Below, one piece after another: positions 1 to 29,087 of a stretch of DNA of 64,000 nucleotides. The stretch is taken from NCBI GenBank assembly GCA_902765625.1, contig CACXAO010000010.1, positions 22,400 through 86,399 on the forward strand, written 5' to 3'. The notes beneath the pieces were generated by a model that was given only the letters and a program-made list of their open reading frames with translations, made no database searches and was not told the origin of the DNA. This stretch comes from an uncultured Ruminococcus sp. (GTDB lineage: Bacteria; Bacillota; Clostridia; Oscillospirales; Acutalibacteraceae). The position numbers were made by a program, and so were the translations under genes. Position 1 is the stretch's first letter. The number at the start of each line of letters is the position of its first letter.

Positions 1-2268
1 GTCAGAGAGGAAGTGCATTTCTATCTTTATAATTCCGTCGCCCTGACATGCCTCGCACCTGCCGCCCTTGACGTTGAACGAGAAACGGCTCTGGTCGAAA
101 CCGCGCATCTTTGCGTCCTGAGTTGTGGCAAACAGCGCGCGGATGTCGGTGAACAGCCCGGTATAAGTCGCGGCGTTCGAACGCGGCGTTCTGCCGATCG
201 GGCTTTGGTCGATCTCAATCACCTTGTCGAGGTTCTCGATGCCGCGCAGCTCCTTGTGCTTTCCCGAAATCGTCTTGGCGCGGTTCAGCTCGCGTGCGAG
301 GGTCTTGTAGAGAATCTCGTTGATGAGCGAGCTTTTGCCCGAGCCTGAAACGCCCGTTACGCAGACAAGCTTGCCGAGCGGAATCTTAACATTGATATTC
401 TTCAGGTTATTCTCGGCGGCTCCGCGAATCTCGAGGAACTTGCCGTTGCCCTTTCGCCTTTCAGCAGGAACGGGAACCGCGCGTCTGCCGCTCAGATACT
501 GACCGGTTATTGAAGCCTCGCACGCCTTGATTTCGTCCACGTTGCCGGTGCAGACGATCTGACCGCCGTGGATTCCGGCGCCGGGTCCCACGTCAACAAT
601 GCAGTCGGCGGCGTACATTGTATCCTCGTCGTGCTCGACCACGATCACCGTATTGCCGAGGTCGCGCAGCCGCTTGAGAGTGCCGAGAAGCTTCTCGTTG
701 TCGCGCTGATGAAGTCCGATGCTAGGCTCGTCGAGGATATAGAGAACACCCATCAGCGAGCTGCCGATTTGCGTGGCAAGGCGGATCCTCTGGCTTTCGC
801 CGCCGCTCAGGGTGCCCGCGCTGCGCGAAAGGGTCAGGTAGCCCAGACCCACGCTCTTGAGGAAGTTGAGGCGTTCGGTGATCTCCTTTATGATTTCCTC
901 GCCGATTATCTTCTCCTTCTCGCTCAGCTCGAGCGACTGAATGAAGTCGATCGCGTCGACAACGCTCTTTTTGCAGAAGTCGGCAATATTGATTCCGCCC
1001 ACGGTGACGGCTAAGCTCTCCTTGCTCAGGCGGTCGCCCTTGCAGTCGTCGCAGGGGATTTCAGCCATATAGCTGCGGATCTCGTCCTTTATCCAGTTGG
1101 ACGAGGTCTCGCGGTAGCGGCGGTCGAGGTTAGTTATCACGCCCTCAAACGGGTGCTCGTAGGTGCCGCTGCCGTAGACGTTCCGGCGGTGCATGGTGAG
1201 CTTTTCGTCGCCCGTGCCGTAGAGTATCTTCTGAACAACGTCGTCGGGCAAATCGCGGATAGGCGTGCTCAGCGAGAACTTGTAGCGCCTGGCGAGCGCG
1301 TCGAAGTACATAGCCGCTATGGTGCTGCCCTCCATCGCCCAGCCGCCGCCTTTTACGCCGCCGTCCTTTATGCTTTTATTCCTGTCGGGAATTATTTTAT
1401 TCTCGTCGATCTTGAGGAAAACGCCCAGACCCGTGCACTTCGGGCAGGCTCCGAACGGATTGTTGAACGAGAACATACGCGGCGTAAGCTCGTCGATGCT
1501 GACCCCGTGGTCGGGACAGGCGTACTTCTGCGAAAATACTACGTCCTCGTCGCCGAAATTGACCATGACGATGCCGCCGCTGTGCTTTGAGGCGGTCTCG
1601 ATGCTGTCGGAAAGCCGCGAGGTTATCTCGGGCTTGATCACCAATCTGTCGACGATGATTTCTATATTATGCTTTTTATTTTTCTCTAAAGGAATTTTCT
1701 CTTGGAGATCGTAGACTATTCCATCGGCGCGTACGCGTACAAAGCCTGCCTTTCGCGCGCTGTCGAGCACCTTGGCGTGCTCGCCCTTTCTGCCGCGGAC
1801 AACGGGCGACATTACCTGAATCTTCGTTCCAACGGGATAGGTCATTATTTTGTCGACGATCTGGTCTACCGTCTGCTGGCGTATCTCGCGGCCGCAGACC
1901 GTGCAGTGAGGCACGCCGATCCTCGCGTAAAGCAGTCGCAGGTAGTCGTAGATCTCGGTTACGGTGCCGACGGTCGAACGCGGATTCTTGGATGTGGTCT
2001 TTTGGTCGATCGAAATCGCCGGGGATAGTCCCTCTATGCTCTCGACGTTCGGCTTGTCCATCTGACCGAGAAACATTCGCGCATACGACGACAAGCTCTC
2101 GACATAGCGGCGCTGACCCTCGGCGTAGATCGTATCGAAGGCGAGCGAGCTTTTGCCCGAGCCGGACAGACCCGTGATGACCACGAGCTTCTCTCGCGGG
2201 ATTTCGACGTCTATATTTTTAAGGTTGTGTTCCTTTGCGCCTTTTACAATAATTCTTTCAAGTGACAT
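1..2268 (-). CDS. uvrA: UvrA, excinuclease ABC subunit A (partial, C-terminus off the window)
   Basis: This is the damage-recognition ATPase of nucleotide excision repair, which loads UvrB on damaged DNA in the cytoplasm. The first 756 codons are visible and the rest lies beyond the left edge. The protein opens [16 protein letters not shown]. The first Walker A (GLSGSGKSS) is near residue 33 and the ABC signature LSGGE is in the middle. The second Walker A (GVSGSGKSS) is near residue 639, and the C-terminal zinc site starts as CEAC at about 738. The first zinc module reads C-P-D-H then C-P-K-C, so a His probably replaces one Cys ligand. The gene has its own promoter and is separated from ftsH by a terminator. 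Family assignment is certain. Confidence 0.97.
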
Positions 2269-2300
2269 AGCTCTGATTCCTGTCGTATATTATTTATATT

Positions 2301-2329
2301 AGTATACCACATTTATTTTAAAATATCAA
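2301..2329 (-). promoter_or_regulatory. sigma-A-type promoter of uvrA
   Basis: On the minus strand TTGATA and TATACT are separated by exactly 17 nt, with TGTGG directly before the -10 (extended -10). It lies about 30 nt upstream of the uvrA ATG. No LexA-type box was recognised here by eye. Confidence 0.7.
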
Positions 2330-2363
2330 GCGTTTTTCGTAAGTTTGTTCGAAATCTTGGCAA

Positions 2364-2397
2364 CAAAAAGCGGCGGAAGCTTATTACTCCCACCGCT
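2364..2397 (-). terminator. intrinsic terminator after ftsH
   Basis: The arms at 2387-2397 and 2369-2379 form an 11-bp GC-rich stem with two G-T wobbles and a 7-nt loop. In the minus direction they are followed by five to six T residues. It lies just past the ftsH stop and closes the rnjA-to-ftsH transcription unit before the uvrA promoter. Confidence 0.8.
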
Positions 2398-2402
2398 CGT
2401 TA

Positions 2403-4427
2403 TTATTCTTCTGCGGAATTATTATCCTTATTTTCGGTCGTGCCGTCAACAGTGTTCGCTGTTGCTTCGGCAAACCCGGAAACAGACTCTTCTTCCTCGG
2501 GCTCCTCGGCAGGCTCCACGTAAGTGCCGTTCATAACAGCCTCAAAGTCCGCGCCGCTCATCTTTTCGTGCTTGATCAGATACGCGGCGATCTCGTGCAG
2601 CTTGTCGATGTTCTCGCTGAGCAGCTTCTCTGCCTTTGCGTAGGCGTCGTTGACTATCTCAAGCACAAGCTCGTCGATCTTGGCGGCGGTAGCCTCGCTG
2701 TAGTCCTGAGTGCGCGCCATATCCCTGCCGAGGAATACGCTGCCGCTCTCGGAGCCGTAGTTTACGCAGCCAAGCTCCTTGGTCATGCCGTACTTGGTGA
2801 CCATCGCGCGCGCGGTCTTTGTCGCACGCTCGATGTCGTTGGACGCGCCTGTTGAGATGTCGTCGAGGATCAGCGCCTCAGCAACGCGTCCGCCGAGGGA
2901 TACCACGATATCCTCGAGCATTTCACTGCGCGAATTGTACGACTTGTCCTCGGTGGGCAGAGGCATTGTGTAGCCGCCTGCCATGCCGCGGGGTATGATC
3001 GAGATCTCGTGAACGGGATCCTGAGTTTCGAGCACGTCGAAGAGGATCGCGTGACCTGCCTCGTGATAAGCGGTCAGCTTCTTCTCCTTGTCGCTCATTA
3101 CCTTGCTCTTTTTCTCCGCGCCGACTACGACCTTGATCGTCGCTTCCTCGATCTCCTTCATGGTGATCGCCTTTTTATCGGCACGCGCCGCGAGGAGAGC
3201 TGCCTCGTTGAGCAGGTTTTCGAGGTCGGCTCCGGTGAAGCCCGCGGTGGTCTTGGCGATGGTGCGGAGCTTTACGTCGGGAGCAAGCGGCTTTTTGCGC
3301 GCGTGAACCTTGAGGATGGCCTCACGGCCGTTAACGTCGGGATAGCTTACGACAACCTGACGGTCGAAACGTCCGGGTCTGAGGAGAGCCGGGTCGAGAA
3401 CGTCGGGACGGTTGGTCGCGGCGATCAGGATTACGCCCTCGTTAACGCCGAAGCCGTCCATCTCTACAAGCAGCTGGTTGAGGGTCTGCTCGCGCTCGTC
3501 GTTGCCGCCGCCGAGACCTGCGCCTCTCTGTCTGCCGACAGCGTCGATCTCGTCGATAAAGATGATACACGGAGCGTTCTTCTTCGCCTGGTCAAAGAGG
3601 TCGCGGACGCGCGACGCACCTACGCCGACGAACATCTCTACGAAGTCCGAACCCGAAATTGAGAAGAACGGAACGCCTGCCTCGCCTGCAACTGCGCGCG
3701 CAAGGAGGGTTTTACCGGTTCCGGGAGGTCCCACGAGCAGCACGCCCTTTGGAATGCGCGCGCCAAGCTTGTTGAACTTATCGGGATTTTTAAGGAACTC
3801 GACTACCTCGGCAAGCTCTTCCTTCTCCTCGTCGGCTCCTGCAACGTCGTCGAAGGTTGTCTTGCGCTTTTCGTCGTTTGTATTTTTGATTTTAGCCTTG
3901 CCGAAGTTCATCTCTCTGCCGATGCCTCCGCTGCCCATGCGCTTCATCAGGAATATCCATGCGCCGATGAAGATGGCAACCATGATGATCGTCGGGATGA
4001 GCTCGAGCAGGAACGAATTGTCGCTCGCACGGATGTAGTTGTACTTTACAGGCTCGTCGGGCGTTGACTTCTCGTTGATCTGGTCGATAAACAGGCGGAT
4101 ATCGGCGAGCTGTCCCTTGACGACGACCTTGGACTTGGTTTCGGTCTGCTCTCCTACCCCCGCGAGAGCTGTGAGCGGATTGCTGGCGGCGCTCTCCTCG
4201 GTTTTGGGATACGCCTTCTCGCCCTCCTTGAGGGTGATTTCAATCGCGCCTGTGCCGTAGTTGATCGTGTAGCTGTCAACCTTGTCGTCGATGAAGTACT
4301 GCACAAGCTCGGAGGTCTTGGGAGAGTCCGACTGGCGCGTACTGAGGAAAATCGCGGCGACAATAATCAGCACAATCGGGATTGCGAGATAGAGCAGCAG
4401 GTTGCGCGTCCTCTTTTTATTGTCCAA
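2403..4427 (-). CDS. ftsH: FtsH, ATP-dependent zinc metalloprotease
   Basis: This is a membrane-anchored AAA+ protease that degrades misfolded and regulatory proteins. The 674 residues show a first membrane segment at about 8-28, an extracytoplasmic domain, and a second membrane segment at about 143-162. Walker A GPPGTGKT is at 233-240, Walker B ends in IIFIDEID near 288-295, and the zinc site HEAGH is at 455-459. The tail is acidic. The start codon is TTG, with an AAGGAG-type ribosome site about 11 nt upstream. It follows hpt by 86 nt, the same tilS-hpt-ftsH order as in Bacillus, and is the last gene before a terminator. Confidence 0.97.
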
Positions 4428-4513
4428 ATTATTTCACACTCCTTGGATAATTGGTGGTCAGCGTAACACGGTCAGGCGTCTTTTTAAAAGGAAACTGACC
4501 GATAATCACTGTT

Positions 4514-5056
4514 TTATTCATAAACGGAACGCTTGAGAATTCCGATATAAGGCAGGTTGCGGTATTTCTCGTCATAGTCGAGACCGTAGCCGACAATGAA
4601 TTCGTCGGGGATTTCGGCTCCGCAGTAGTCGGGCACAAGCGGAACCTTGCGGCGCGAGGGTTTGTCGCAGAGGGTGCAGACCTTTACGGAGTTCGCGCCC
4701 TTTGTCATAAGATAGTTCATAACGAAGTTGAGGGTGTTGCCCGAATCGATGATGTCCTCAACAATGAGAACGTCCTTGCCCTGAACAGGCAGAGTGAGGT
4801 CGCTGACGATTTTGACCCTGCCCGAGCTTTCGGTGCCGCTGCCGTAGCTGGAGGCGACCATGAAATCGATAGAAAAGTCAAGATTTATGCGCTTCATCAG
4901 GTCAGCCATGAACGCGACGCTGCCCTTGAGCAGTCCGATCATCATAAACTCTTTGTCATTATAATCTTTTTCGATCTGTTTTGCAAGAGACTTCACAATT
5001 TTTTCAAGTTTTTCCTGCGAAAGCAATACGGATTCAACGTCCTTGTGTAACATCAT
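4514..5056 (-). CDS. hpt: Hypoxanthine phosphoribosyltransferase
   Basis: This purine-salvage enzyme converts hypoxanthine or guanine plus PRPP to IMP or GMP. The 180-residue product has the usual length, with the PRPP-binding loop VLIVEDIIDSGNTL in the middle and a C-terminal VPDYCGAEIPDEFIVGYGLDY region typical of the family. The gene starts inside the end of tilS (overlap of about 20 nt), so the two are probably translationally coupled. Two adjacent ATGs (5056 and 5053) are possible; the ribosome site spacing suits the second better. Confidence 0.95.
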   Translation of the reverse strand: MMLHKDVESVLLSQEKLEKIVKSLAKQIEKDYNDKEFMMIGLLKGSVAFMADLMKRINLDFSIDFMVASSYGSGTESSGRVKIVSDLTLPVQGKDVLIVEDIIDSGNTLNFVMNYLMTKGANSVKVCTLCDKPSRRKVPLVPDYCGAEIPDEFIVGYGLDYDEKYRNLPYIGILKRSVYE

Positions 5057-6341
5057 AGCACCTCTCCTCGCTCAGTTCAATGGTTAGTTTTTGGCTTTTA
5101 ACGTATTTTTTACCCTGTTCCGAATAACCCAGAGCCTCGCACCAGAGCACCGCTGCGCCCTCGCACAGACATAGCACACTGCCGCGCAGCTGCGACGGAA
5201 CGTTGATCTCGCGGAGAGCCTTGCCCAAAGGCTTGGTTATATTTCTTTTTTGGAAAGAAAACACATCGCCCTCGCGGCGTGTGCGGAAAACCAGGGTTTT
5301 ATTTTCTTTTTCGGAATTATTTATTGAAGCGGTAACGCGCTTTCCTTTAAAATGAAAGCTCACGCTTCCGTTAAGCTCGATTTCAGGCTCGTCGGACAAA
5401 ACGCTCTCGGCGATGCAGAAAACATTGCGCCTGCAAACCGCCGTGAAGCTTCGGTTCAGCTCAACAGCGCCGCCGCTTTTGAGGATATCCGAGATCAGAA
5501 CGAGCTTTTTGTAATCGGTTTGAATATTATATTTCTTTAACAGAATATTAATCGCCGTGTTGAGCACAGCCGCATGGTTGCTCATCAGGCTGTCGGCACG
5601 GTAGCCGCAGTCCGATTCGGCGTTTTTGAGCGCGCTACGCGCCTGAATGTCGAGATAATCCGCGGTCTCGGCGGCTGAATTTGTGAAGCGCATAACGGCG
5701 GCTTCAAACGACGGATTCAGCTCTCGCAAAACGGGAATCACGCGGTGGCGGATTTTGTTCCGGGAATAATCGTCGCCGAGGTTGGTGCTGTCGGTGACGA
5801 AGTCAAGTCCGTTTTGCCTGCAATACTCCTCGATTTCGGCGCGTGTGACCCCGATAAGCGGACGGATTATCCTGCCGCGCTTAGGCGGTATGCCTGCCGC
5901 GCCGCGAAGCGAGCTGCCGCGCGTCAAATTGAAAATCAGCGTTTCGGCGTTGTCGTCGGCGTTGTGGGCGGTGGCGATTTTGGCGTTAAGCTCATCTGCG
6001 AGCGATTCGAGAAAGGCGTAGCGCTCCTCTCTGCCGCAAAGCTCCTCGCTTAGCTGCCGCTGACGTGCAAGCGCCGGAATATCGACGGTTTTAGAGTAAA
6101 ACGGGATATTATATTTCCCACAGAGAATTTTGCAGAAGCTTTCGTCGCGGTCGGCTTCCTCGCCGCGAATGCCGTGGTTGAGGTGGGCGGCATAGACTGT
6201 GAGATTATATTTTTCTTTTACAGAATAAAGAAAATGCAGCAGCGCGGTGGAATCCGCGCCTCCCGAAAGCGCGGCGACAACTGCGCCGCCGTTTTCGAGC
6301 ATATTATATTTTTCGCAGGCTGCGAGCGCTTTAGGCGTCAT
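5034..6341 (-). CDS. tilS: TilS, tRNA(Ile)-lysidine synthetase
   Basis: TilS changes C34 of the CAU-anticodon tRNA-Ile to lysidine, so that the tRNA reads AUA. The N-terminal PP-loop motif SGGADST is at residues 26-32, followed by an adenylation core (HLNHGIRGEEADRDE) and a C-terminal tRNA-binding domain ending near QLRGSVLCLCEG. At 435 residues it has the normal length. It overlaps dnaB by 11 nt upstream and hpt downstream, which indicates tight operon packing. It is an essential gene in most bacteria. Confidence 0.95.
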   Translation of the reverse strand: MTPKALAACEKYNMLENGGAVVAALSGGADSTALLHFLYSVKEKYNLTVYAAHLNHGIRGEEADRDESFCKILCGKYNIPFYSKTVDIPALARQRQLSEELCGREERYAFLESLADELNAKIATAHNADDNAETLIFNLTRGSSLRGAAGIPPKRGRIIRPLIGVTRAEIEEYCRQNGLDFVTDSTNLGDDYSRNKIRHRVIPVLRELNPSFEAAVMRFTNSAAETADYLDIQARSALKNAESDCGYRADSLMSNHAAVLNTAINILLKKYNIQTDYKKLVLISDILKSGGAVELNRSFTAVCRRNVFCIAESVLSDEPEIELNGSVSFHFKGKRVTASINNSEKENKTLVFRTRREGDVFSFQKRNITKPLGKALREINVPSQLRGSVLCLCEGAAVLWCEALGYSEQGKKYVKSQKLTIELSEERCYDVTQGR

Positions 6342-7698
6342 ACTTCTTCTCCATGCCCGTGAAGCGCATAAACTCGCCCTGCCAGTGGAGCTTGACGGTG
6401 CTTGTTTCGCCGTGACGGTTCTTTGCCACGATGCACTCGCCCGAATTCATGTCCGCCTGCGGAGTCGGGTTGTCGCCGCCCTCGCGGTCGTAGTAGCCCT
6501 CGCGGAAGAGGAAAAGCACGATGTCGGCGTCCTGCTCGATTGAACCGGAGTCGCGGAGGTCGGAAAGCTGCGGACGGTGGTCGCCCGTGCGCTGCTCGGA
6601 CGCACGCGAAAGCTGCGAGAGCGTGATGATCGGCACGTTTAGCTCCTTAGCCATGATTTTGAGGTTTCGGGTGATCGCGGAGATCTCCTGAACGCGGTTG
6701 TCTATCCTTCTGCCGCTCGCCATGAGCTGGAGGTAGTCGATTACTACCAGATCGACCTGCTTGAGCCTTCTCAGCCGCGCCTTCATCTCGGTTATCGTGA
6801 TGGTCGAGGTGTCGTCGAGGTAGAGGTTCGCGTTTTTGAGAACGTCGCTTGCGGGAATCAGCCTTGCCCAGTCGCTGTTGTCGAGCTTGCCGGTGCGCAG
6901 CTTGGTGCCGCTGACGAGAGCCTCCGACGAGAGAAGTCGGCTGGCGAGCTGCTCCCGCGACATTTCGAGCGAGAAGAACGCGACGGTTTTCTTTGACTGG
7001 CACGCCACGTTGCGCGCGATATTGAGCGCAAAGCTCGTTTTGCCCATACCAGGTCGAGCCGCGAGAATGATAAGGTCGCTGCGGTTGAGCCCGGTTATCA
7101 TGCGGTCGAGGTCGCCGATGCCCGTCGGGATTGCCCTTGTGTTGCTGTCGCGGTCGGAGTTGAGGTCGTCGAGGCGGTCGAAGGTCTGCAAAATGACCGA
7201 ATTTATCCTCTCAAGACCCTTTGACGATTCGTCGCTGCGGATGTCGAACAATCTCTGCTCGGCGGCGTCGAGAATGAGCGATACGTCCTCGGCTCCCTCG
7301 GAGGCGTCGTCGATGATAGCTCGCGAGGCGGCGACAAGCTGCCTGAGCTTGTACTTCTCGGCGACGATGCGCGCGTACTGACCGGCGTTGCTGTAGGACG
7401 GGCAGGAGTCCGCGATATTGATGATATAGGTTTTGCCGCCGCTGCCCTCAAACTCTGGGTTGCCCTCGAGCCTGTCGATAAGGGTGACGGGGTCGATGGG
7501 GACGCCGCTGTTCATCATCAGCAGCATTTCCTTGTAAATCAACTTGTGAACGCCGATAAAGAAATAGTCGGGGTTTTTGATGAAGTCGAGCACCTCGTCG
7601 AGCATGGAGCTTTCGAGCAACACAGCGCCCAGAACGCTCTGCTCAGCCATTGTGCTGTACTGCACGCTGCCGAGGTCGGAAGTGTACTCCTCCGCCAT
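6331..7698 (-). CDS. dnaB: DnaB, replicative DNA helicase
   Basis: This is the hexameric 5'-3' helicase at the replication fork (called DnaC in Bacillus). An N-terminal primase-interacting domain is followed by a RecA-like core with Walker A ARPGMGKTS, the Walker B region VDLVVIDYLQLM, and the arginine-containing C-terminal segment RDSGSIEQDADIVLFLFR. An in-frame TTG at 7704 would overlap rplI. The ATG at 7698, with GAGG 7 nt upstream, is preferred and gives 455 residues beginning MAEEYTSD. It lies 2 nt after rplI, the conserved gdpP-rplI-dnaB order. Confidence 0.96.
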   Translation of the reverse strand: MAEEYTSDLGSVQYSTMAEQSVLGAVLLESSMLDEVLDFIKNPDYFFIGVHKLIYKEMLLMMNSGVPIDPVTLIDRLEGNPEFEGSGGKTYIINIADSCPSYSNAGQYARIVAEKYKLRQLVAASRAIIDDASEGAEDVSLILDAAEQRLFDIRSDESSKGLERINSVILQTFDRLDDLNSDRDSNTRAIPTGIGDLDRMITGLNRSDLIILAARPGMGKTSFALNIARNVACQSKKTVAFFSLEMSREQLASRLLSSEALVSGTKLRTGKLDNSDWARLIPASDVLKNANLYLDDTSTITITEMKARLRRLKQVDLVVIDYLQLMASGRRIDNRVQEISAITRNLKIMAKELNVPIITLSQLSRASEQRTGDHRPQLSDLRDSGSIEQDADIVLFLFREGYYDREGGDNPTPQADMNSGECIVAKNRHGETSTVKLHWQGEFMRFTGMEKKYDA

Positions 7699-12235: not shown

Positions 12236-12673
12236 ATGAAAAGAGTTCAGGTTTTTACAGACGGCGCGTGCAGCGGCAATCCCGGTCCGGGCGGCTGGGG
12301 CGCTGTTCTGAGGTACAACGGAGTTGAAAAGGAGCTTTCCGGCGGCGAACGCGAGACCACCAACAACCGCATGGAGCTTTGCGCCGTGATTTTTGCGCTT
12401 GAGGCGCTCAAGGAACCGTGCGAGGTTGAGCTTTACAGCGATTCGCAGTACGTTTGCAACGCGCTCAAGCTCGGATGGGCTAAAAAATGGCGTTCTCAGG
12501 GCTGGATGCGCAATAAAAAGGAAAAGGCGCAGAATCCCGACCTCTGGGAAAGACTGCTCAACCTCTGCGACAGACATCAGCTTGAAATAAACTGGGTAAA
12601 GGGTCACGCAGGTCACCCCGAAAACGAACGCTGCGACAGACTCGCCGTTGCCGAAGCAAAGAAGTTCATGTGA
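12236..12673 (+). CDS. rnhA: Ribonuclease HI
   Basis: RNase HI cleaves the RNA strand of RNA:DNA hybrids, removing R-loops and primers. It has 145 residues. The catalytic D-E-D-D set is visible in [14 protein letters not shown] (first Asp), [10 protein letters not shown] (Glu), LYSDSQYV (Asp) and ERCDRLA (last Asp), with the HAGHPEN loop near the end. An upstream in-frame ATG at 12125 is not used, because AAAGGAG lies 7 nt before the ATG at 12236 and the protein then starts as usual ([10 protein letters not shown]). A long heptamer array begins 20 nt after the stop. Confidence 0.96.
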
Positions 12674-12692: not shown

Positions 12693-13280
12693 CCAACTAC
12701 CAACTGCCGACTACCAACTGCCAACTACCAACTGCCAACTACCAACTGCCAACTACCAACTGCCAACTACCAACTGCCAACTATCAGCTACCAACTGCCA
12801 ACTGCCAACTACCAACTATCAACTACCAACTGCCAACTACCAACTACCAACTACCAACTACCAACTACCAGCTACCAACTGCCAACTGCCAACTATCAAC
12901 TACCAACTACCAACTGCCAACTACCAACTACCAACTACCAACTATCAGCTGCCAACTGCCAACTGCCAACTGCCAACTATCAACTACCAACTACCAACTG
13001 CCAACTACCAACTATCAACTACCAACTACCAACTGCCAACTACCAACTACCAACTACCAACTATCAGCTGCCAACTATCAACTACCAACTGCCAACTACC
13101 AACTGCCAACTATCAGCTACCAACTGCCAACTGCCAACTACCAACTATCAACTACCAACTGCCAACTGCCAACTGCCAGCTACCAACTGCCAACTACCAA
13201 CTGCCAACTATCAACTGCCAACTGCCAACTGCCAACTGCCAACTGCCAGCTACCAACTGCCAACTACCAACTGCCGACTA
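12693..13280 (+). repeat. 84-unit tandem heptanucleotide array, consensus CCAACTR
   Basis: Exactly 84 head-to-tail 7-nt units without a phase break fill the gap between rnhA and the nrdR terminator. Most units are CCAACTA or CCAACTG; minority forms are TCAACTA, TCAGCTA/G and CCAGCTA. The rare unit CCGACTA occurs only as the third and the last unit, so the same three-unit order (CCAACTA, CCAACTG, CCGACTA) begins and ends the array. The plus strand is C-rich and G-poor. The minus strand carries GG doublets about every 7 nt. All three plus frames are open because 7 is 1 modulo 3, but there is no ribosome site, so coding is unlikely. It is not a CRISPR array because it has no spacers. Confidence 0.97.
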
Positions 13281-13282
13281 AC

Positions 13283-13312
13283 AAAAAATCAGCCGTCCAA
13301 AGCGGGCGGCTG
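13283..13312 (-). terminator. intrinsic terminator after nrdR
   Basis: A 9-bp stem (13290-13298 with 13304-13312, one G-T pair) has a 5-nt loop and is followed on the minus strand by six T residues. It may also stop transcripts coming through the heptamer array from rnhA. Confidence 0.75.
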
Positions 13313-13327
13313 TGTTGCTTTTAAATC

Positions 13328-13786
13328 TTACTTTTTCTCGGTGAGGAGCTTGTTCAACTCCTCCATAAAGGTGTTGATGTCCTTGAACTGGCGGTAAACC
13401 GAGGCGAAACGCACGTACGATACCTCGTCGACCGATTTCAGCTCCTCCATTGCAAGCTCGCCTATCTGACGGGTGGTTATCTCGCGGTCGAGCATGCTCT
13501 GGATCTTCGCCTCGATGCGGTCAACCATCTTCTCTATCTGAGTGAGCGAAACGGGACGCTTTTCGCAGGCGCGGAGTATGCCGGCGGTCAGCTTGTTGCG
13601 GTCGAATACCTCGCGTGACTTGTCGCGCTTTACTACGATTATCGGGACGGTCTCGATGACCTCGTGGGTGGTGAAACGCTTGCCGCATTTGAGACATTCT
13701 CTGCGGCGGCGGATCCTCTCGCCGTCGTCCGCCGAACGCGAGTCGATAACCTTGCTCTCTTCAAAGCTGCAATATGGACATTTCAT
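13328..13786 (-). CDS. nrdR: NrdR, transcriptional repressor of ribonucleotide reductase genes
   Basis: NrdR senses ATP/dATP and represses nrd operons. The 152 residues open with a zinc ribbon (CPYC at residues 3-6 and CLKCGKRF about 30 residues later) and continue with an ATP-cone domain ([21 protein letters not shown]). No ribonucleotide reductase gene is in the window, so it acts in trans. It has its own promoter immediately after the dacF stop codon. Confidence 0.97.
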
Positions 13787-15240: not shown

Positions 15241-17286
15241 CTAATTCATTGTATTGTGACCGCCGCGGCTGAACAATCTGTCGATTTCGGCGTTGAGCAG
15301 CCGAAGCTCGTCGTTTCGGAGATCCCTGTAGCGGAACATGATATCATCGGCGATCTTCTGAGAAAGCTCAAGGCTCTTGGTGTCGGCAAAATCGGCGATG
15401 GCGAGCTGCGGCAGACCGTGCTGTCGTTCTCCGAAAAAGTCGCCGGGTCCGCGCATCTTCAAATCCTCGTCGGCGATTTTGAAGCCGTCGTTGGTGGCGC
15501 ACATGACCTCGAGCCGCTGACGCGTGACCTGATTCATGCGGTCGCTTATCAGCACGCAGAAGGACTGCGCCTCTCCTCTGCCCACTCTGCCGCGAAGCTG
15601 GTGGAGCTGAGAAAGCCCGAACCGCTCGGCGTTCTCGATAACCATTACCGACGCGTTCGGAACGTCAACCCCGACCTCGATTACGGTTGTCGCGACGAGA
15701 ATCTTGTATTCATTTCGTGCAAAGCCGTCCATAACGGCGTCCTTTTCGGCGGGCTTGAGCTTTCCGTGAACCACGCCGACGGGTATATCGGGGAAGTGAT
15801 TAAGCATTAGCTCGGCGGCGTACTCCTCGGCGGAAGCTACTCCGTCAAGCTCGCCCTCCTCGACGAGCGGACAGACGATATATGCCTGCCTGCCGTTCGA
15901 GACCTCCTCGCGGATAAAATTATATATTCTGCTTCGTCCCGAAGCAGGCAGCAGCACTGTGCGCACGGGCTTGCGGTTCGGCGGAAGCTCGTTGATAACC
16001 GAAATATCGAGGTCGCCGAAGATGATAAGCCCGAGGGTTCGCGGAATCGGCGTTGCGCTCATTACGAGCAGGTGCGGATTGTCGCCCTTTGACAGCAGCT
16101 TTGCGCGCTGCGCCACTCCGAAGCGGTGCTGCTCGTCGGTGACGGCGAGTCCGAGGTTACAAAACTCGGTCTTATCGGTGATCAGCGCGTGGGTGCCGAT
16201 GACGAGCTGAATCGTGCCGTCGGCGATTCCTAAGCGGACGCGCTTCTTCTCGCTCTCCTTCATGGAGCCTGTGAGCAGTCCGACGCTGACCCCCGCGCCG
16301 CCGAGATGCTTTTGAAAGGTCTCGAAGTGCTGCGCGGCGAGGATCTCGGTCGGAGCCATGAACGCCGCCTGAAAGCCGTTCTTTATCACGGTGAAGCACA
16401 CCGACGCGGCAACCGCCGTTTTACCGGAGCCTACGTCGCCCTGTACAAGGCGGTTCATCTGCGACGGCTTATTGAGCATATCGTTCACGCAGTCCGAGAT
16501 CGCGCGTTTCTGCGCGCCCGTCAGCTCAAACGGCAGAAGCTTTTCGAACTTCGCCGAATGGTCGCTGCGGATTTTTACGCCGCTCAGAGTGCGGCTGTGG
16601 TCGCGCAGGCTGCGCATTCCGAGGTTGAGCACGACGAGCTCCTCTGTGACGAGCCTCTTTCGCGCGTACTCAAGCTCGGCGGTGGTTTTCGGAAAATGGA
16701 TATCCTCCATCGCCTGACGAAGTCCGCACAGATCGTACTTTTTGCGGATAGGCTCAGGCAGAGGGTCGCCTACCGTTTCGGGCAGCATTTTGAGCGACTT
16801 CTGCACCGCGCCTTCGATAGTCTTTGAGTTAAGACCCGCGGTCGAGCGGTACACCGGGTGGATATGCGGACCCTGACGCGAGGGTGAAAACGCCGGAGCT
16901 ACCATCTGAGCGCCGTAGCCGTCGATGGTTATTTTTCCGAAAAAGAAATATTCTGCGCCGTAAGCGAGCATCTGACTTATGTATTTATTATTGAAGAACA
17001 CGAGCTTTAAGGTTCCCGTGTCGTCGTAAACCGTGGTTTTGCAGAGAAAGCGTCCGCCCGGAAGCACTGCGTTTGAGACGGCTGAGCCGACGACCGCCTT
17101 TACGCAGTAGGTGCCCTCCTCGGTGATATCGGCGATTTTCGTGACCTCGCTCCAGTCCTCGTACGCTCTGGGATAGAACTGGATAAGCTCGCCGACAGAG
17201 GAAATTCCGAGCTTTTCGAACTGCTCTGCGCGTTTGGGTCCCACTCCCGGAAGAGCGGAAACCGGGGTTTTGAATAGTGATGGCAT
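15241..17286 (-). CDS. recG: RecG, ATP-dependent DNA helicase
   Basis: RecG remodels stalled replication forks and branched DNA, and removes R-loops. The 681 residues hold the N-terminal wedge/OB domain (LPGVGPKRAEQFEKLGI at the start), the helicase core with Walker A GDVGSGKT and DEQH box, motif VMSATPIPRTL, and the C-terminal motif QLRGRVGRG. The start is the normal family start, yet no Shine-Dalgarno sequence is visible. A heptamer array ends only 12 nt upstream of the ATG. A terminator lies between fakA and the array, so the source of recG transcription is unclear. Confidence 0.96.
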   Translation of the reverse strand: MPSLFKTPVSALPGVGPKRAEQFEKLGISSVGELIQFYPRAYEDWSEVTKIADITEEGTYCVKAVVGSAVSNAVLPGGRFLCKTTVYDDTGTLKLVFFNNKYISQMLAYGAEYFFFGKITIDGYGAQMVAPAFSPSRQGPHIHPVYRSTAGLNSKTIEGAVQKSLKMLPETVGDPLPEPIRKKYDLCGLRQAMEDIHFPKTTAELEYARKRLVTEELVVLNLGMRSLRDHSRTLSGVKIRSDHSAKFEKLLPFELTGAQKRAISDCVNDMLNKPSQMNRLVQGDVGSGKTAVAASVCFTVIKNGFQAAFMAPTEILAAQHFETFQKHLGGAGVSVGLLTGSMKESEKKRVRLGIADGTIQLVIGTHALITDKTEFCNLGLAVTDEQHRFGVAQRAKLLSKGDNPHLLVMSATPIPRTLGLIIFGDLDISVINELPPNRKPVRTVLLPASGRSRIYNFIREEVSNGRQAYIVCPLVEEGELDGVASAEEYAAELMLNHFPDIPVGVVHGKLKPAEKDAVMDGFARNEYKILVATTVIEVGVDVPNASVMVIENAERFGLSQLHQLRGRVGRGEAQSFCVLISDRMNQVTRQRLEVMCATNDGFKIADEDLKMRGPGDFFGERQHGLPQLAIADFADTKSLELSQKIADDIMFRYRDLRNDELRLLNAEIDRLFSRGGHNTMN

Positions 17287-17298
17287 AGTTTTATATCT

Positions 17299-17417
17299 TA
17301 GTTGGTAGTTGGTAGTTGGTAGTTGGTAGTTGATAGTTGATAGTTGGTAGTTGGCAGTTAGCGGTTGGTAGTTGATAGTTGGTAGTTGATAATTGATAGT
17401 TGGTTGTTGGCAGTTGG
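17299..17417 (-). repeat. 17-unit tandem heptamer array upstream of recG, same family as the rnhA array
   Basis: Seventeen 7-nt units read TAGTTGG/TAGTTGA on plus, which is CCAACTA/TCAACTA on minus. They lie between the fakA terminator and the recG start. The units furthest from recG are the most degenerate (CAGTTAG, CGGTTGG, TAATTGA, TTGTTGG) and the four nearest recG are identical, which suggests recent expansion at that side. The CCAACTR strand is the coding strand of recG, just as in the other array it is the coding strand of rnhA. Confidence 0.95.
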
Positions 17418-17430
17418 TTTTGATAATAAC

Positions 17431-17489: not shown

Positions 17490-19142
17490 TTACTCGATGC
17501 TGAGGATGAAGTAGTAAACGGGCTGGTCGCCTTTGACGAGAGATACGTCGGCGCGTGAACCGAACTTATCCTGAAGCTCGTCAAACGCCTTCTGAGCGTC
17601 CTCCTCCTCGATGTCCTCGCCGTAAATCAGTGTGATGAACGAGGTGTCGCGGGTAACCATGCTCTTTGCGAGCTTTACGAGAGCCTTGACGGCGCTCTTC
17701 TCGGTGATGGTGAGCTTGCCGTTCTGGAGAGCGATGATGTCGCCTTCCTTGATCTTCCTGCCGCCGAACTCGCTGTTGCGCGCCGCGAAGGTGACAAGAC
17801 CGGTGTCTACGTTATGAGCCGCGTCCATCATCAGCTGAGCGTTGCTCTCCGCTGAGATCTCGGGGTCAAAGTTGAGCAGCGCGGTCATGCCCTGGGGAAT
17901 GGTACGTGTGGGAACGATGATAACGTTTCTGTCGGTAACCATGGGCACGGTCTGCTGAGCCGCAAGAATGATGTTCTTGTTGTTGGGCAGCACGATTACG
18001 TTCTTTGCCGGAGTCGCGAGAACTGCCTCGTAAATATCGTCTGTGCTGGGGTTCATGCTCTGTCCGCCCGAAACAACGTTTATGCAGCCAAGCTCCTTAA
18101 AGAGGTTCTTCATGCCCTCGCCTGCCGCTACAGCGACAAATCCGATATCCTCGGTAGGCTCGGCGAACTCGAACTTCTCCTTCTTAGCCTTCTTGGACTT
18201 CTTGCTTGCCTTTTTGGCGTTCTTATGCTGCTCCTTCATGTTCTCGACCTTGACAGCCAGAAGCTGACCGTAGGTAAGACCCTTTTCGAGAACAACGTTG
18301 GGGGTTTCGGTGTGAACGTGAACCTTGATGATCTCCTCGTCGTTGACTACGACTACGCAGTCGCCGATGGTCTGTAAATATGTGCGAAGGTCGTCGGGCT
18401 CGAGAGTGCACTCGGTATCTCTGCCGACGATGATTTCCGTGCAGTAGGTGAACTCGATGTCGTCGTCGAACTCAGCGGCGGCGCTCTCGAAGGTATCTAC
18501 AGTGGGAGCGCTCGTCTCCTCGTAGGGAACGACCTCTCCGTCGCGGAAGAAGCTGAGCATGCCCTCGAAGATCGTGCAAAGACCCTTGCCGCCCGCGTCT
18601 ACCACGCCCGCCTTTTTGAGAACGGGGAGAAGCTCGGGAGTAAGAGCAAGCGCGTCGTTAGCCTTGTTGACGATCGTCTGCCATACAAACAGCGCGTTGT
18701 GGTTGTCCTTTGAAGCCTCAACGCCTGCCTCGTAAGCCATGCGGGCTACCGTGAGGATAGTACCCTCGGCAGGCTTGGTGACAGCCTTGTAGGCTGCGTC
18801 AACGCCGATTCCGAGAGCAGCGGCAATGTTTTTGCCGTTGACCTCCTCCATGCCCTTGAGACCCTGACCGAAGCCGCGGAACAGAATCGAGGTGATAACG
18901 CCGGAGTTTCCTCTCGCGCCGCGAAGCATTGCCTTAGCCGCAAGCTCCGCAACCTCGCCGGCGTTTGTGCTCTCGCAGTCCTCAAGAGCCTTAGCCGCCG
19001 CCATCACGGTCATCGACATGTTTGTGCCGGTATCGCCGTCTGGCACCGGGAAGATATTGAGATCGTTAATATGGTTCTTCTGAGCGCTGATATTGTGGGC
19101 GCCTGAAATTATCGCCTGCTTTAACATCTCACCGTTAATCAT
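17490..19142 (-). CDS. fakA: FakA-type DAK2/DegV-linked fatty acid kinase (YloV family)
   Basis: Proteins of this family phosphorylate fatty acids presented by a FakB (DegV) partner, feeding exogenous fatty acids into phospholipid synthesis. The N-terminal DhaL/DAK2 nucleotide domain carries the metal motif PVPDGDTGTN at residues 32-41. A middle domain and a C-terminal DAK1-like domain follow, with a Lys-rich linker (KKASKKSKKAKKEK) between them. A GTG at 19151 is too close to the AAGGA site, so the ATG at 19142 (MINGEMLKQ, 550 residues) is chosen. Its position just upstream of recG matches the yloV-recG neighbourhood of Bacillota. No fakB is in the window. Confidence 0.88.
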   Translation of the reverse strand: MINGEMLKQAIISGAHNISAQKNHINDLNIFPVPDGDTGTNMSMTVMAAAKALEDCESTNAGEVAELAAKAMLRGARGNSGVITSILFRGFGQGLKGMEEVNGKNIAAALGIGVDAAYKAVTKPAEGTILTVARMAYEAGVEASKDNHNALFVWQTIVNKANDALALTPELLPVLKKAGVVDAGGKGLCTIFEGMLSFFRDGEVVPYEETSAPTVDTFESAAAEFDDDIEFTYCTEIIVGRDTECTLEPDDLRTYLQTIGDCVVVVNDEEIIKVHVHTETPNVVLEKGLTYGQLLAVKVENMKEQHKNAKKASKKSKKAKKEKFEFAEPTEDIGFVAVAAGEGMKNLFKELGCINVVSGGQSMNPSTDDIYEAVLATPAKNVIVLPNNKNIILAAQQTVPMVTDRNVIIVPTRTIPQGMTALLNFDPEISAESNAQLMMDAAHNVDTGLVTFAARNSEFGGRKIKEGDIIALQNGKLTITEKSAVKALVKLAKSMVTRDTSFITLIYGEDIEEEDAQKAFDELQDKFGSRADVSLVKGDQPVYYFILSIE

Positions 19143-19196
19143 AAGCTGCACGTCCTTTTTGTAAACTAAGAAAATGACATTCTTTCAAACATACCT

Positions 19197-20043: not shown

Positions 20044-20062
20044 AAAAAACCTCCTTTTATCA

Positions 20063-20251
20063 GAGTGGAGTGTTGAGATTTAAGAGTGGAGAGTTGAGAG
20101 TGGAGAGTTGAGTTAAGGTTGCGCAGACAGCGCGGACTGTAAATATAAATCGGCGCCCGACTGAATCAATATTGCGCGTTACTTTTCCGCAAAAATCGGG
20201 TGCGGGCAGCGCCCGCCATTCGCTTCACTCTTAACTCTAAACTCTTAACTC
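20063..20251. repeat. inverted-repeat element with heptamer ends (copy 1)
   Basis: This intergenic element is about 189 bp. Its left end is seven consecutive heptamers (GAGTGGA, GTGTTGA, GATTTAA, GAGTGGA, GAGTTGA, GAGTGGA, GAGTTGA). Its right end (20224-20251) is four heptamers of complementary type (TTCACTC, TTAACTC, TAAACTC, TTAACTC). Inside, 20197-20220 holds a GC-rich hairpin (GCGGGC, AGC loop, GCCCGC) that recurs exactly at 29040-29063. It lies between ymdB and yqfD. No ORF is inside, so it resembles a non-autonomous, MITE-like element. Confidence 0.85.
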
Positions 20252-20273
20252 TGAAAATAATTATACCACAAGC

Positions 20274-28900: not shown

Positions 28901-28921
28901 ATTAATCACCCCTTTATCTGA

Positions 28922-29087
28922 GAGTTAAGAGTGGAGAGTTTAGAGTGGAGTTAAGTTTCGAAAAATATTCGGGTGCGGGTGTCCCGCCCAAAATTATTCA
29001 TTTTTAAGTCTTCAGTTTTCAGTATTAATTAAATATTTTCGGGTGCGGGCAGCGCCCGCCATTAACTTAACTCTTAACTCTCCGCTC
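28922..29087. repeat. inverted-repeat element with heptamer ends (copy 2)
   Basis: The left end has four heptamers (GAGTTAA, GAGTGGA, GAGTTTA, GAGTGGA) at 28922-28949. The right end has TTAACTC, TTAACTC and TCCGCTC at 29067-29087. Two GC-rich hairpins lie inside, one at 28970-28989 (GCGGG, TGT loop, CCCGC) and one at 29040-29063 identical over 24 nt to 20197-20220 of copy 1. The region between them is AT-rich. It fills the whole gap between ygiQ and ftsK. No ORF is inside. Confidence 0.85.

Follow-up and report, generated by a model that had tools for sequence, protein, structure and literature searches.

Heptamer repeats have long been known in bacteria, and the STRR sequences of cyanobacteria are of this kind; the foldback transposons of animals, which are eukaryotic and longer, carry inverted arms of short tandem repeats. 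The GGGAATC repeats of Xanthomonas have been described as convergent inverted pairs with a gene-proximal polarity, and both they and the GGGGAYT repeats of Nostoc are defined by G-tracts with G-quadruplex potential, four units being the commonest number (PMC4692102). In one Beggiatoaceae genome (BOGUAY), TAACTGA repeats lie mostly in the forward sense, just before start codons, and have been read as possible regulator sites, and between two Cyanothece strains heptamer-repeat indels are mostly of 7 nt (PMC4679880). The sections of these two papers used here give no settled function or origin for heptamer repeats (PMC4692102; PMC4679880). Among other dispersed elements, REPINs are described as inverted REP doublets (PMC3116915), REPs as carrying a GTAG or CGTC tag, with GTAG REPs accompanying RAYT genes (PMC3733652), and the BrickBuilt MITE of Porphyromonas as an element with a tandem array that is always intergenic (PMC4596501).

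Here, we set beside these systems an array of 84 heptamers found in a 64,000-nt stretch of DNA from an uncultured Ruminococcus sp., called the window below. Many relatives of this array are arms of a small hairpin element, and as far as our search reached, namely open-licence PubMed Central papers, which leave subscription journals mostly uncovered, this element and its five-box arm are new. What should interest specialists is the five-box arm and the way it recurs, not the number 84: once heptamers are tied, in one genus, to a hairpin element that usually has a five-box arm, the vague question "why seven?" becomes the concrete one of what it is that copies or reads five boxes at a spacing of seven.

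The array between rnhA and nrdR

The array occupies positions 12,693 to 13,280 and reads CCAACTR on the plus strand, or YAGTTGG on the minus strand, on which it is annotated as running away from nrdR. Its presence as initially annotated was confirmed: 84 heptamers fill 588 bp in a single phase, all 83 steps between them measuring 7 nt. The proposed unit, CCAACTR, holds for 68 of the 84 heptamers, the remaining 16 being one- or two-base variants (TCAACTA six times, CCAGCTA three times, CCGACTA, TCAGCTA and TCAGCTG twice each, and TCAACTG once). CCGACTA had been reported near both ends within an identical three-unit block, and it does form units 3 and 84, the block CCAACTA-CCAACTG-CCGACTA making up units 1-3 and again 82-84. 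This 21-mer has no further copy in the 806 kb of the genome examined (about 38% of it). An 11-unit block is also duplicated within the array (units 10 and 57), a length reached in 11 of 1000 first-order Markov strings, so larger duplications are likely to have occurred too. The longest exact repeat within the array measures 89 bp, and the longest one common to it and another array of the stretches examined 51 bp, so that reads of 100-150 bp could resolve it. GGG is absent from the G-rich strand of the 84-mer and present in some sister arrays with 8-nt units.

Two convergent genes flank the array, rnhA at 12,236-12,673 (plus strand) and nrdR at 13,328-13,786 (minus strand); these names, like accC, accD and tgt, are presumptive, being in part those of the initial annotation. 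The array starts 19 nt past the rnhA stop and ends two bases before the T-tract (13,283-13,288, on the minus strand) of the terminator-like hairpin of nrdR at 13,283-13,312 (minus strand; stem CAGCCG/CGGCTG). It is a single array with no facing partner, and the covariance model introduced below finds no core at its inner end, where the gap to the rnhA stop is 19 nt.

A dispersed family of heptamer arrays

In the genome assembly (2.14 Mb in 93 contigs, 88.9% complete, contamination estimate 3.63%), (CCAACTR)x3 has 203 overlapping matches. Absence of the repeat elsewhere, named in the initial annotation as a refutation, is thus false, and the array belongs to a dispersed family. The 806 kb examined hold 50 lag-7 arrays, or 42 once these were merged and those without a gene on each side dropped; contigs C11, C17, C26, C52, C57 and C64 had been picked for their pattern matches, so this density is no genome-wide estimate. 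Two kinds of array are present, A (YAGTTGG) and B (GGAGAGT). At lag 7, the stretches of this genome gave 22 segments, compared with 1 at lag 6, 3 at lag 8, 4 at lag 9, 3 at lag 12 and 13 at lag 15. In 20 stretches from relatives (359 kb, including one stretch fetched for its match) there were 12 segments at lag 7, nine at its harmonic, lag 14, and none at any of lags 4-6, 8-13 and 15, and heptamer arrays in relatives are thus far beyond chance.

The window itself holds a second YAGTTGG array, AGT-type on the plus strand, at 17,299-17,418, between the 5′ end of a gene at 15,241-17,286 and the 3′ end of a gene at 17,490-19,151, both on the minus strand. Like the 84-mer, other long arrays of this genome, for example those in loci L217 and L220, have no core. 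Sixteen of the 24 sampled contigs are without any array; contigs C1-C6, C8 and C9 hold none of the 100 (CCAACTR)x3 places listed (out of 203) and no B-type place, of which there are 27 in total. Arrays are restricted to a subset of contigs that tends to higher GC, with overlap, which might reflect regional clustering or a mixed bin. Beside or inside some arrays lie the palindromes GACAGCC-CTTGTG-GGCTGTC and GACAGGG-ACAAG-CCCTGTC (L010, 5615-5650; L011, 9600-9625; L013, 14,413-14,480), perhaps another dispersed repeat.

Orientation and gene borders

In all 11 pairs of opposite-sense arrays that lie no more than 300 bp apart in this genome, an AGT-type array on the left faces an ACT-type array on the right. 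In 35 of 42 arrays, the outer side, that of AGT entry, is the one closer to a gene (median 42 vs 159 nt); the 84-mer is among the seven that break this rule, with 48 nt on its outer and 18 nt on its inner side. Runs of at least four T are found within 12 nt outside 12 of 26 stop-edge arrays, against 9.9% for random stops at equal distances. Some arrays extend into a gene. At L217:5684-7118, array units code for the last residues of accC (QLVVGS), and one of these units supplies its TGA stop; the eight relatives examined end differently, and accC here has lost the native end.

The arrays at 56.3 kb and 57.4 kb of contig C7 have in common an identical 45-bp terminator after unlike genes, which indicates that flanking DNA can be copied along with an array. 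A RelE/HTH pair lies between two arrays there (L011, 16,230-17,400; C7:56.2-57.4 kb). The idea of a toxin-antitoxin cassette was set aside, as other neighbours of arrays are, by their presumptive names, housekeeping-like genes.

The hairpin core and its arms

Between some facing arms sits a GC-rich hairpin, AAATCGGGTGCGGGC-NNN-GCCCGCC. In 19 aligned copies (14 from this genome and five from relatives; 17 distinct), two of the six stem pairs vary on both sides, a count reached in 152 of 500 shuffles, and seven cells are changed on both sides, a score as high as which was seen in none of 500 shuffles. A loose text pattern for such cores matched 109 times in the stretches of this genome, 53 times in relatives and 65 times in one rough shuffle of our own stretches; because its matches were mostly chance, it was replaced by a covariance model built from the 19 copies, with matches counted at E ≤ 0.01. 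The resulting counts, lower bounds since at most 150 candidates were scored per genome, place the core in 10 of the 24 congeneric genomes searched: 19 matches in our own, 81 in G012, 62 in G017, 51 in G023, 30 in G004, 16 in G007, 13 in G015, 11 in G021, three in G013 and one in G006. The same model at the same threshold found none in the 14 other congeners and none in 15 genomes of other genera; copies were also seen in G052 and G039, outside the 24-genome set. A known RNA family was rejected as the identity of the element, an Rfam search of seven sources (L033, L032, L031, L029, L027, L071 and L072) having returned no match to it; of the three hits in these sources, one was a glmS riboswitch (L029) and the other two did not reach the gathering score.

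Three cores lie in the window, all on the plus strand. One (AAATCGGGTGCGGGCAGCGCCCGCC), with its first arm boxes, spans 20,193-20,236, and its hairpin-side arm (ACTCTNN kind, 20,223-20,252) faces an arm of the second heptamer kind, GGAGAGT, at 20,062-20,113. An arm of the GAGAGTT kind at 28,920-28,950 precedes a core with an ATTATTC-like arm (28,966-29,007), and directly after this follows a further core with an AACTCTT arm (29,036-29,079).

The arms are in phase with the hairpin. From 52 copies, 16 of our own and 36 from relatives, one was dropped for want of an anchor; in the remaining 51, identity within the hairpin-side arm is 0.68 at lag 7 and 0.26-0.31 at other lags. A[CT]T stands exactly 4 nt past the stem in 48 of the 51, and at +11, +18, +25 and +32 in 31, 25, 24 and 23; this phase lock is partly circular, given that the model covers some 20 nt of the arm, though not boxes 4 and 5. 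Of the 268 A[CT]T triplets within 40 nt of the hairpin, 151 share the main phase; two other phases account for 59 and 46, and the remaining phases for 12. The B-type arms of our genome take a first step of 5 nt and hence a different phase.

The number of boxes was counted in 83 copies from eight relatives, second copies per locus, L329 and some weaker matches being left out. A box [ACT]A[CT]T (HAYT) recurs every 7 nt, at positions 1 to 9 in 78, 67, 61, 55, 48, 13, 2, 1 and 4 of the 83 copies; runs end at box five in 38 of them, earlier in 35 and later in 10. Five boxes are the usual arm size in relatives, not a fixed one. The three bases between boxes are mostly alike within a copy and differ between copies (in G012 led by CCT, ATT, GTT and TTC), and heptamers also vary between species while core and phase are constant. 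Behind a second hairpin, 22 of 80 copies have at least four inverted boxes on the far side; reading the same stretch backwards gives 7 of 80. Two short-armed copies fold as single long hairpins: the one at C11:21.9 kb, which has A arms on either side (z −5.5), and a B-armed one, with z −5.8 when the neighbouring terminator is excluded and −8.0 when it is included. Three long mixed-arm copies fold no better than shuffles, so a structural role of long arrays is unsupported. In 15 of 46 copies, the arm ends within 25 nt of the next gene.

Changes between species

Five copy pairs were aligned across both flanks, one of them with only about 30 nt beyond the arm. The arms differ by exactly one heptamer in two pairs (L296/L307, G012 vs G017; L295/L343, G012 vs G004) and show no indel in the other three. 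Sister copies thus change in 7-nt steps, and the 84-mer may have done the same. The initial annotation had proposed growth between fixed borders; growth agrees with these steps in two of five pairs, while nothing in the data makes the end block a border.

The same gene gaps hold different elements in different species. Between accC and accD, our genome, G042 and G039 have elements with three different heptamers, and six species have none within the 130 nt after accC. The rnhA-nrdR gap, which ranges from 84 to 1120 bp among seven species, holds the A-type array of 588 bp in our genome and a core with GGAAAAT-like arms in G052. Copies common to related species allow the gain and loss of units to be counted.

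Comparison with described systems

The facing pairs and the polarity of our family (11 of 11 pairs, 35 of 42 arrays) are those already published for the Xanthomonas repeats, and neither is new (PMC4692102). The 84-mer departs from this pattern, as a single array and an exception to the nearer-gene rule. In contrast to the G-tracts by which the Xanthomonas and Nostoc repeats are defined (PMC4692102), it contains no GGG; that a family with such a longest member obeys the same placement rule argues against G-quadruplexes as a general cause. The sections cited describe neither a hairpin core nor a five-box arm for the Xanthomonas and Nostoc repeats (PMC4692102), and no hairpin element for the Beggiatoaceae repeats, which resemble ours in being dispersed heptamers at gene borders with the same polarity (PMC4679880). 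A Microcystis sample in the latter source runs against our polarity, with eight sets reverse to the start codon and six forward (PMC4679880). Like heptanucleotide long simple sequence repeats and STRR, our family is tandem with a 7-nt unit, intergenic and dispersed.

With REPs and REPINs, as the cited sections present them, the element shares short intergenic palindromes, inverted doublets, many copies and a patchy distribution between species (PMC3733652; PMC3116915). The core family has a palindrome with a covarying stem, a doublet-like far side in 22 of 80 copies and a high copy number, whereas the 84-mer is without a core. Neither a GTAG nor a CGTC tag stands at the stem in the 19 aligned copies, heptamer arms adjoining it instead; A-type units contain GTAG, the letters of a REP tag, by themselves. 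Y1_Tnp is absent from our assembly (88.9% complete) and present in 22 of 40 genomes of the genus, where its presence does not match that of the core, the core-less congeners G009, G010 and G011 having it. An origin through RAYT was rejected on this absence and this distribution. The element is REPIN-like in anatomy and fails the tag and RAYT tests, and hence we have not filed it as a REP. It has the terminal inverted repeats of a MITE and is non-coding, intergenic and repeated, the 84-mer corresponding to a single arm; its inverted arms of short repeats are also, by description, like those of animal foldback transposons. BrickBuilt too is a MITE with a tandem array, but its units are of 23 nt and lie inside the element (PMC4596501), whereas here 7-nt units form the arms.

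Origin of the 84-unit array

We think it rather likely that the 84-mer is an orphaned and overgrown arm of a small, non-coding, dispersed, REPIN-like element of the genus. It is kin to the element arms, since it has the same heptamer as the arms of complete copies such as that at C11:21.9 kb; its descent from an arm we infer from sequence, orientation and position. The lack of a core at its inner end and its exception to the nearer-gene rule speak against such a descent. The interpretation in the initial annotation is supported in part: a free-standing array with special end marks is not supported, many members of the family being arms of a hairpin element, usually of five boxes. The fullest copies of this element run from one arm of five heptamers through two hairpins parted by a spacer to a second, inverted arm of five heptamers. 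Copies lie in gene gaps, often reaching a stop codon, terminator or ribosome-binding site. The heptamers of an arm resemble one another, so that the unit varies from copy to copy and from species to species around a constant hairpin and phase. Unit number changes by a single heptamer at a time, the pattern expected of slippage or unequal recombination. The element may be copied in trans as single-stranded hairpin DNA. In its own species, A-type arms seem to have outgrown five units, up to 84 here, and slippage or recombination could have made the 84-mer grow.

In a rival reading, the array would be a plain long simple-sequence repeat, grown on its own from a chance seed by slippage favouring a 7-nt step, with the hairpin element merely bordering some arrays. 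Lag 7 is the leading period in all sets scanned, orphan arrays exist, CCAACTR occurs in many phyla at loci without the core, and slippage is the cause offered in earlier work cited in the sections of both heptamer papers that we used (PMC4692102; PMC4679880). Free slippage, however, predicts neither phase nor five-box drop nor orientation, and arms keep to the phase of the hairpin in 48 of 51 copies (an agreement to which the model itself contributes in part), thin sharply after box five and face each other in a nearly absolute orientation. These three properties count against a plain repeat, which we regard as possible but doubtful. Phase and box number would be expected to persist under selection if the boxes were putative binding sites, either for an RNA-binding protein or for one that reads heptads in the manner of the ribbon-helix-helix ParB (omega) of pSM19035. 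That protein is reported to read WATCACW at a parS that needs at least four contiguous 7-bp repeats, one dimer on each (PMC9499535), a precedent that would suit the constant A-Y-T, variable spacer, kept phase and usual number of our boxes. Against this, unit sequence varies within one genome, as the four leading spacers of G012 illustrate, and 84 units go far beyond any such need, making binding sites an improbable explanation.

An artefact of assembly or binning, giving a wrong array length or array contigs from another organism, seems very unlikely to us. The contigs C1-C6, C8 and C9, free of listed A-type and of all B-type places, the tendency of array contigs to higher GC and the contamination estimate given above are in its favour; yet G021 is the best-scoring relative both for a protein from an array-rich contig (91%) and for one from an array-free contig (86%), a result that still allows two close relatives in the bin, and the repeats within the array are short enough for reads. 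Least probable of all, to the point that we give it hardly any weight, is telomerase-like synthesis by a reverse transcriptase with a short RNA template that adds heptamers, as DRT10, reported to make tandem-repeat DNA, would do (PMC12632851). Although in-phase arrays joined to many unrelated sites would follow from it, we rejected this origin after a search of the 88.9% complete assembly for RVT_1 gave no match (a control search matched 3 of 14 named genomes), and several kinds of unit in one genome and one-unit differences between copies at the same place also speak against it. The overgrown arm of a REPIN-like element is thus the reading that we retain.

Heptamer arrays outside the genus

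Beyond the genus, (CCAACTR)x4 occurs in at least 116 stretches, and the 80 titles listed include Cyanobacteria, Gammaproteobacteria, Acidobacteria, Bacteroidetes, Chlorobi, Chloroflexi, Planctomycetes, Verrucomicrobia and others. The likeness to cyanobacterial heptamers seen in the initial annotation is borne out by records from Tychonema, Microcoleus and Lyngbya as well as by those from other phyla. The core of our genus has no match in these 116 loci or in 20 further stretches, and the sharing of CCAACTR among several phyla may be due to convergence or transfer. Searches of 18 other-phyla genomes gave matches to the backward control as well in G055 (2), G056 (10), G063 (1) and G064 (20 against 13), so that these genomes contain other heptamer arrays.

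Facing pairs in other phyla run AGT-then-ACT in 29 of 30 cases, the exception being L119 (ACT-then-AGT), and by G-skew they score 33 to 4. At selected loci, the G-rich strand is AGT in 184 of 292 arrays and ACT in 19; in stretches not selected for arrays it is AGT in 15 of 32 and ACT in none, these 32 comprising 16 from other phyla, in genomes known to hold CCAACTR arrays, and 16 from the genus, one of them on a contig fetched for its match. Frames of at least 100 codons end near the AGT side of 90 of 193 other-phyla arrays and near the ACT side of 33. A stop lies in or touches the array in 31 of the 193, and 20 of these stops are TAG.

Arms laid out similarly turn up in unrelated phyla as well. 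Tentatively, and with more doubt than conviction, we suggest that STRR, the Xanthomonas GGGAATC and Beggiatoa TAACTGA repeats and our own arrays could be of one kind: inverted arms, each of a few boxes in which A-N-T recurs at 7-nt intervals, which end hairpin elements with unrelated cores and are copied or read by machinery counting 7-nt steps, long arrays being runaway arms. Some contigs, for example those at L092, L098, L118 and L144, apparently stop within a heptamer array or right next to one, so that assemblies probably break at these arrays and too few of them are counted. In L136 (Planctomycetota), four heptamer pairs face each other along the roughly 7 kb of positions 117-7298. Three of these pairs enclose variants of one unrelated core and may represent a second family of armed elements.
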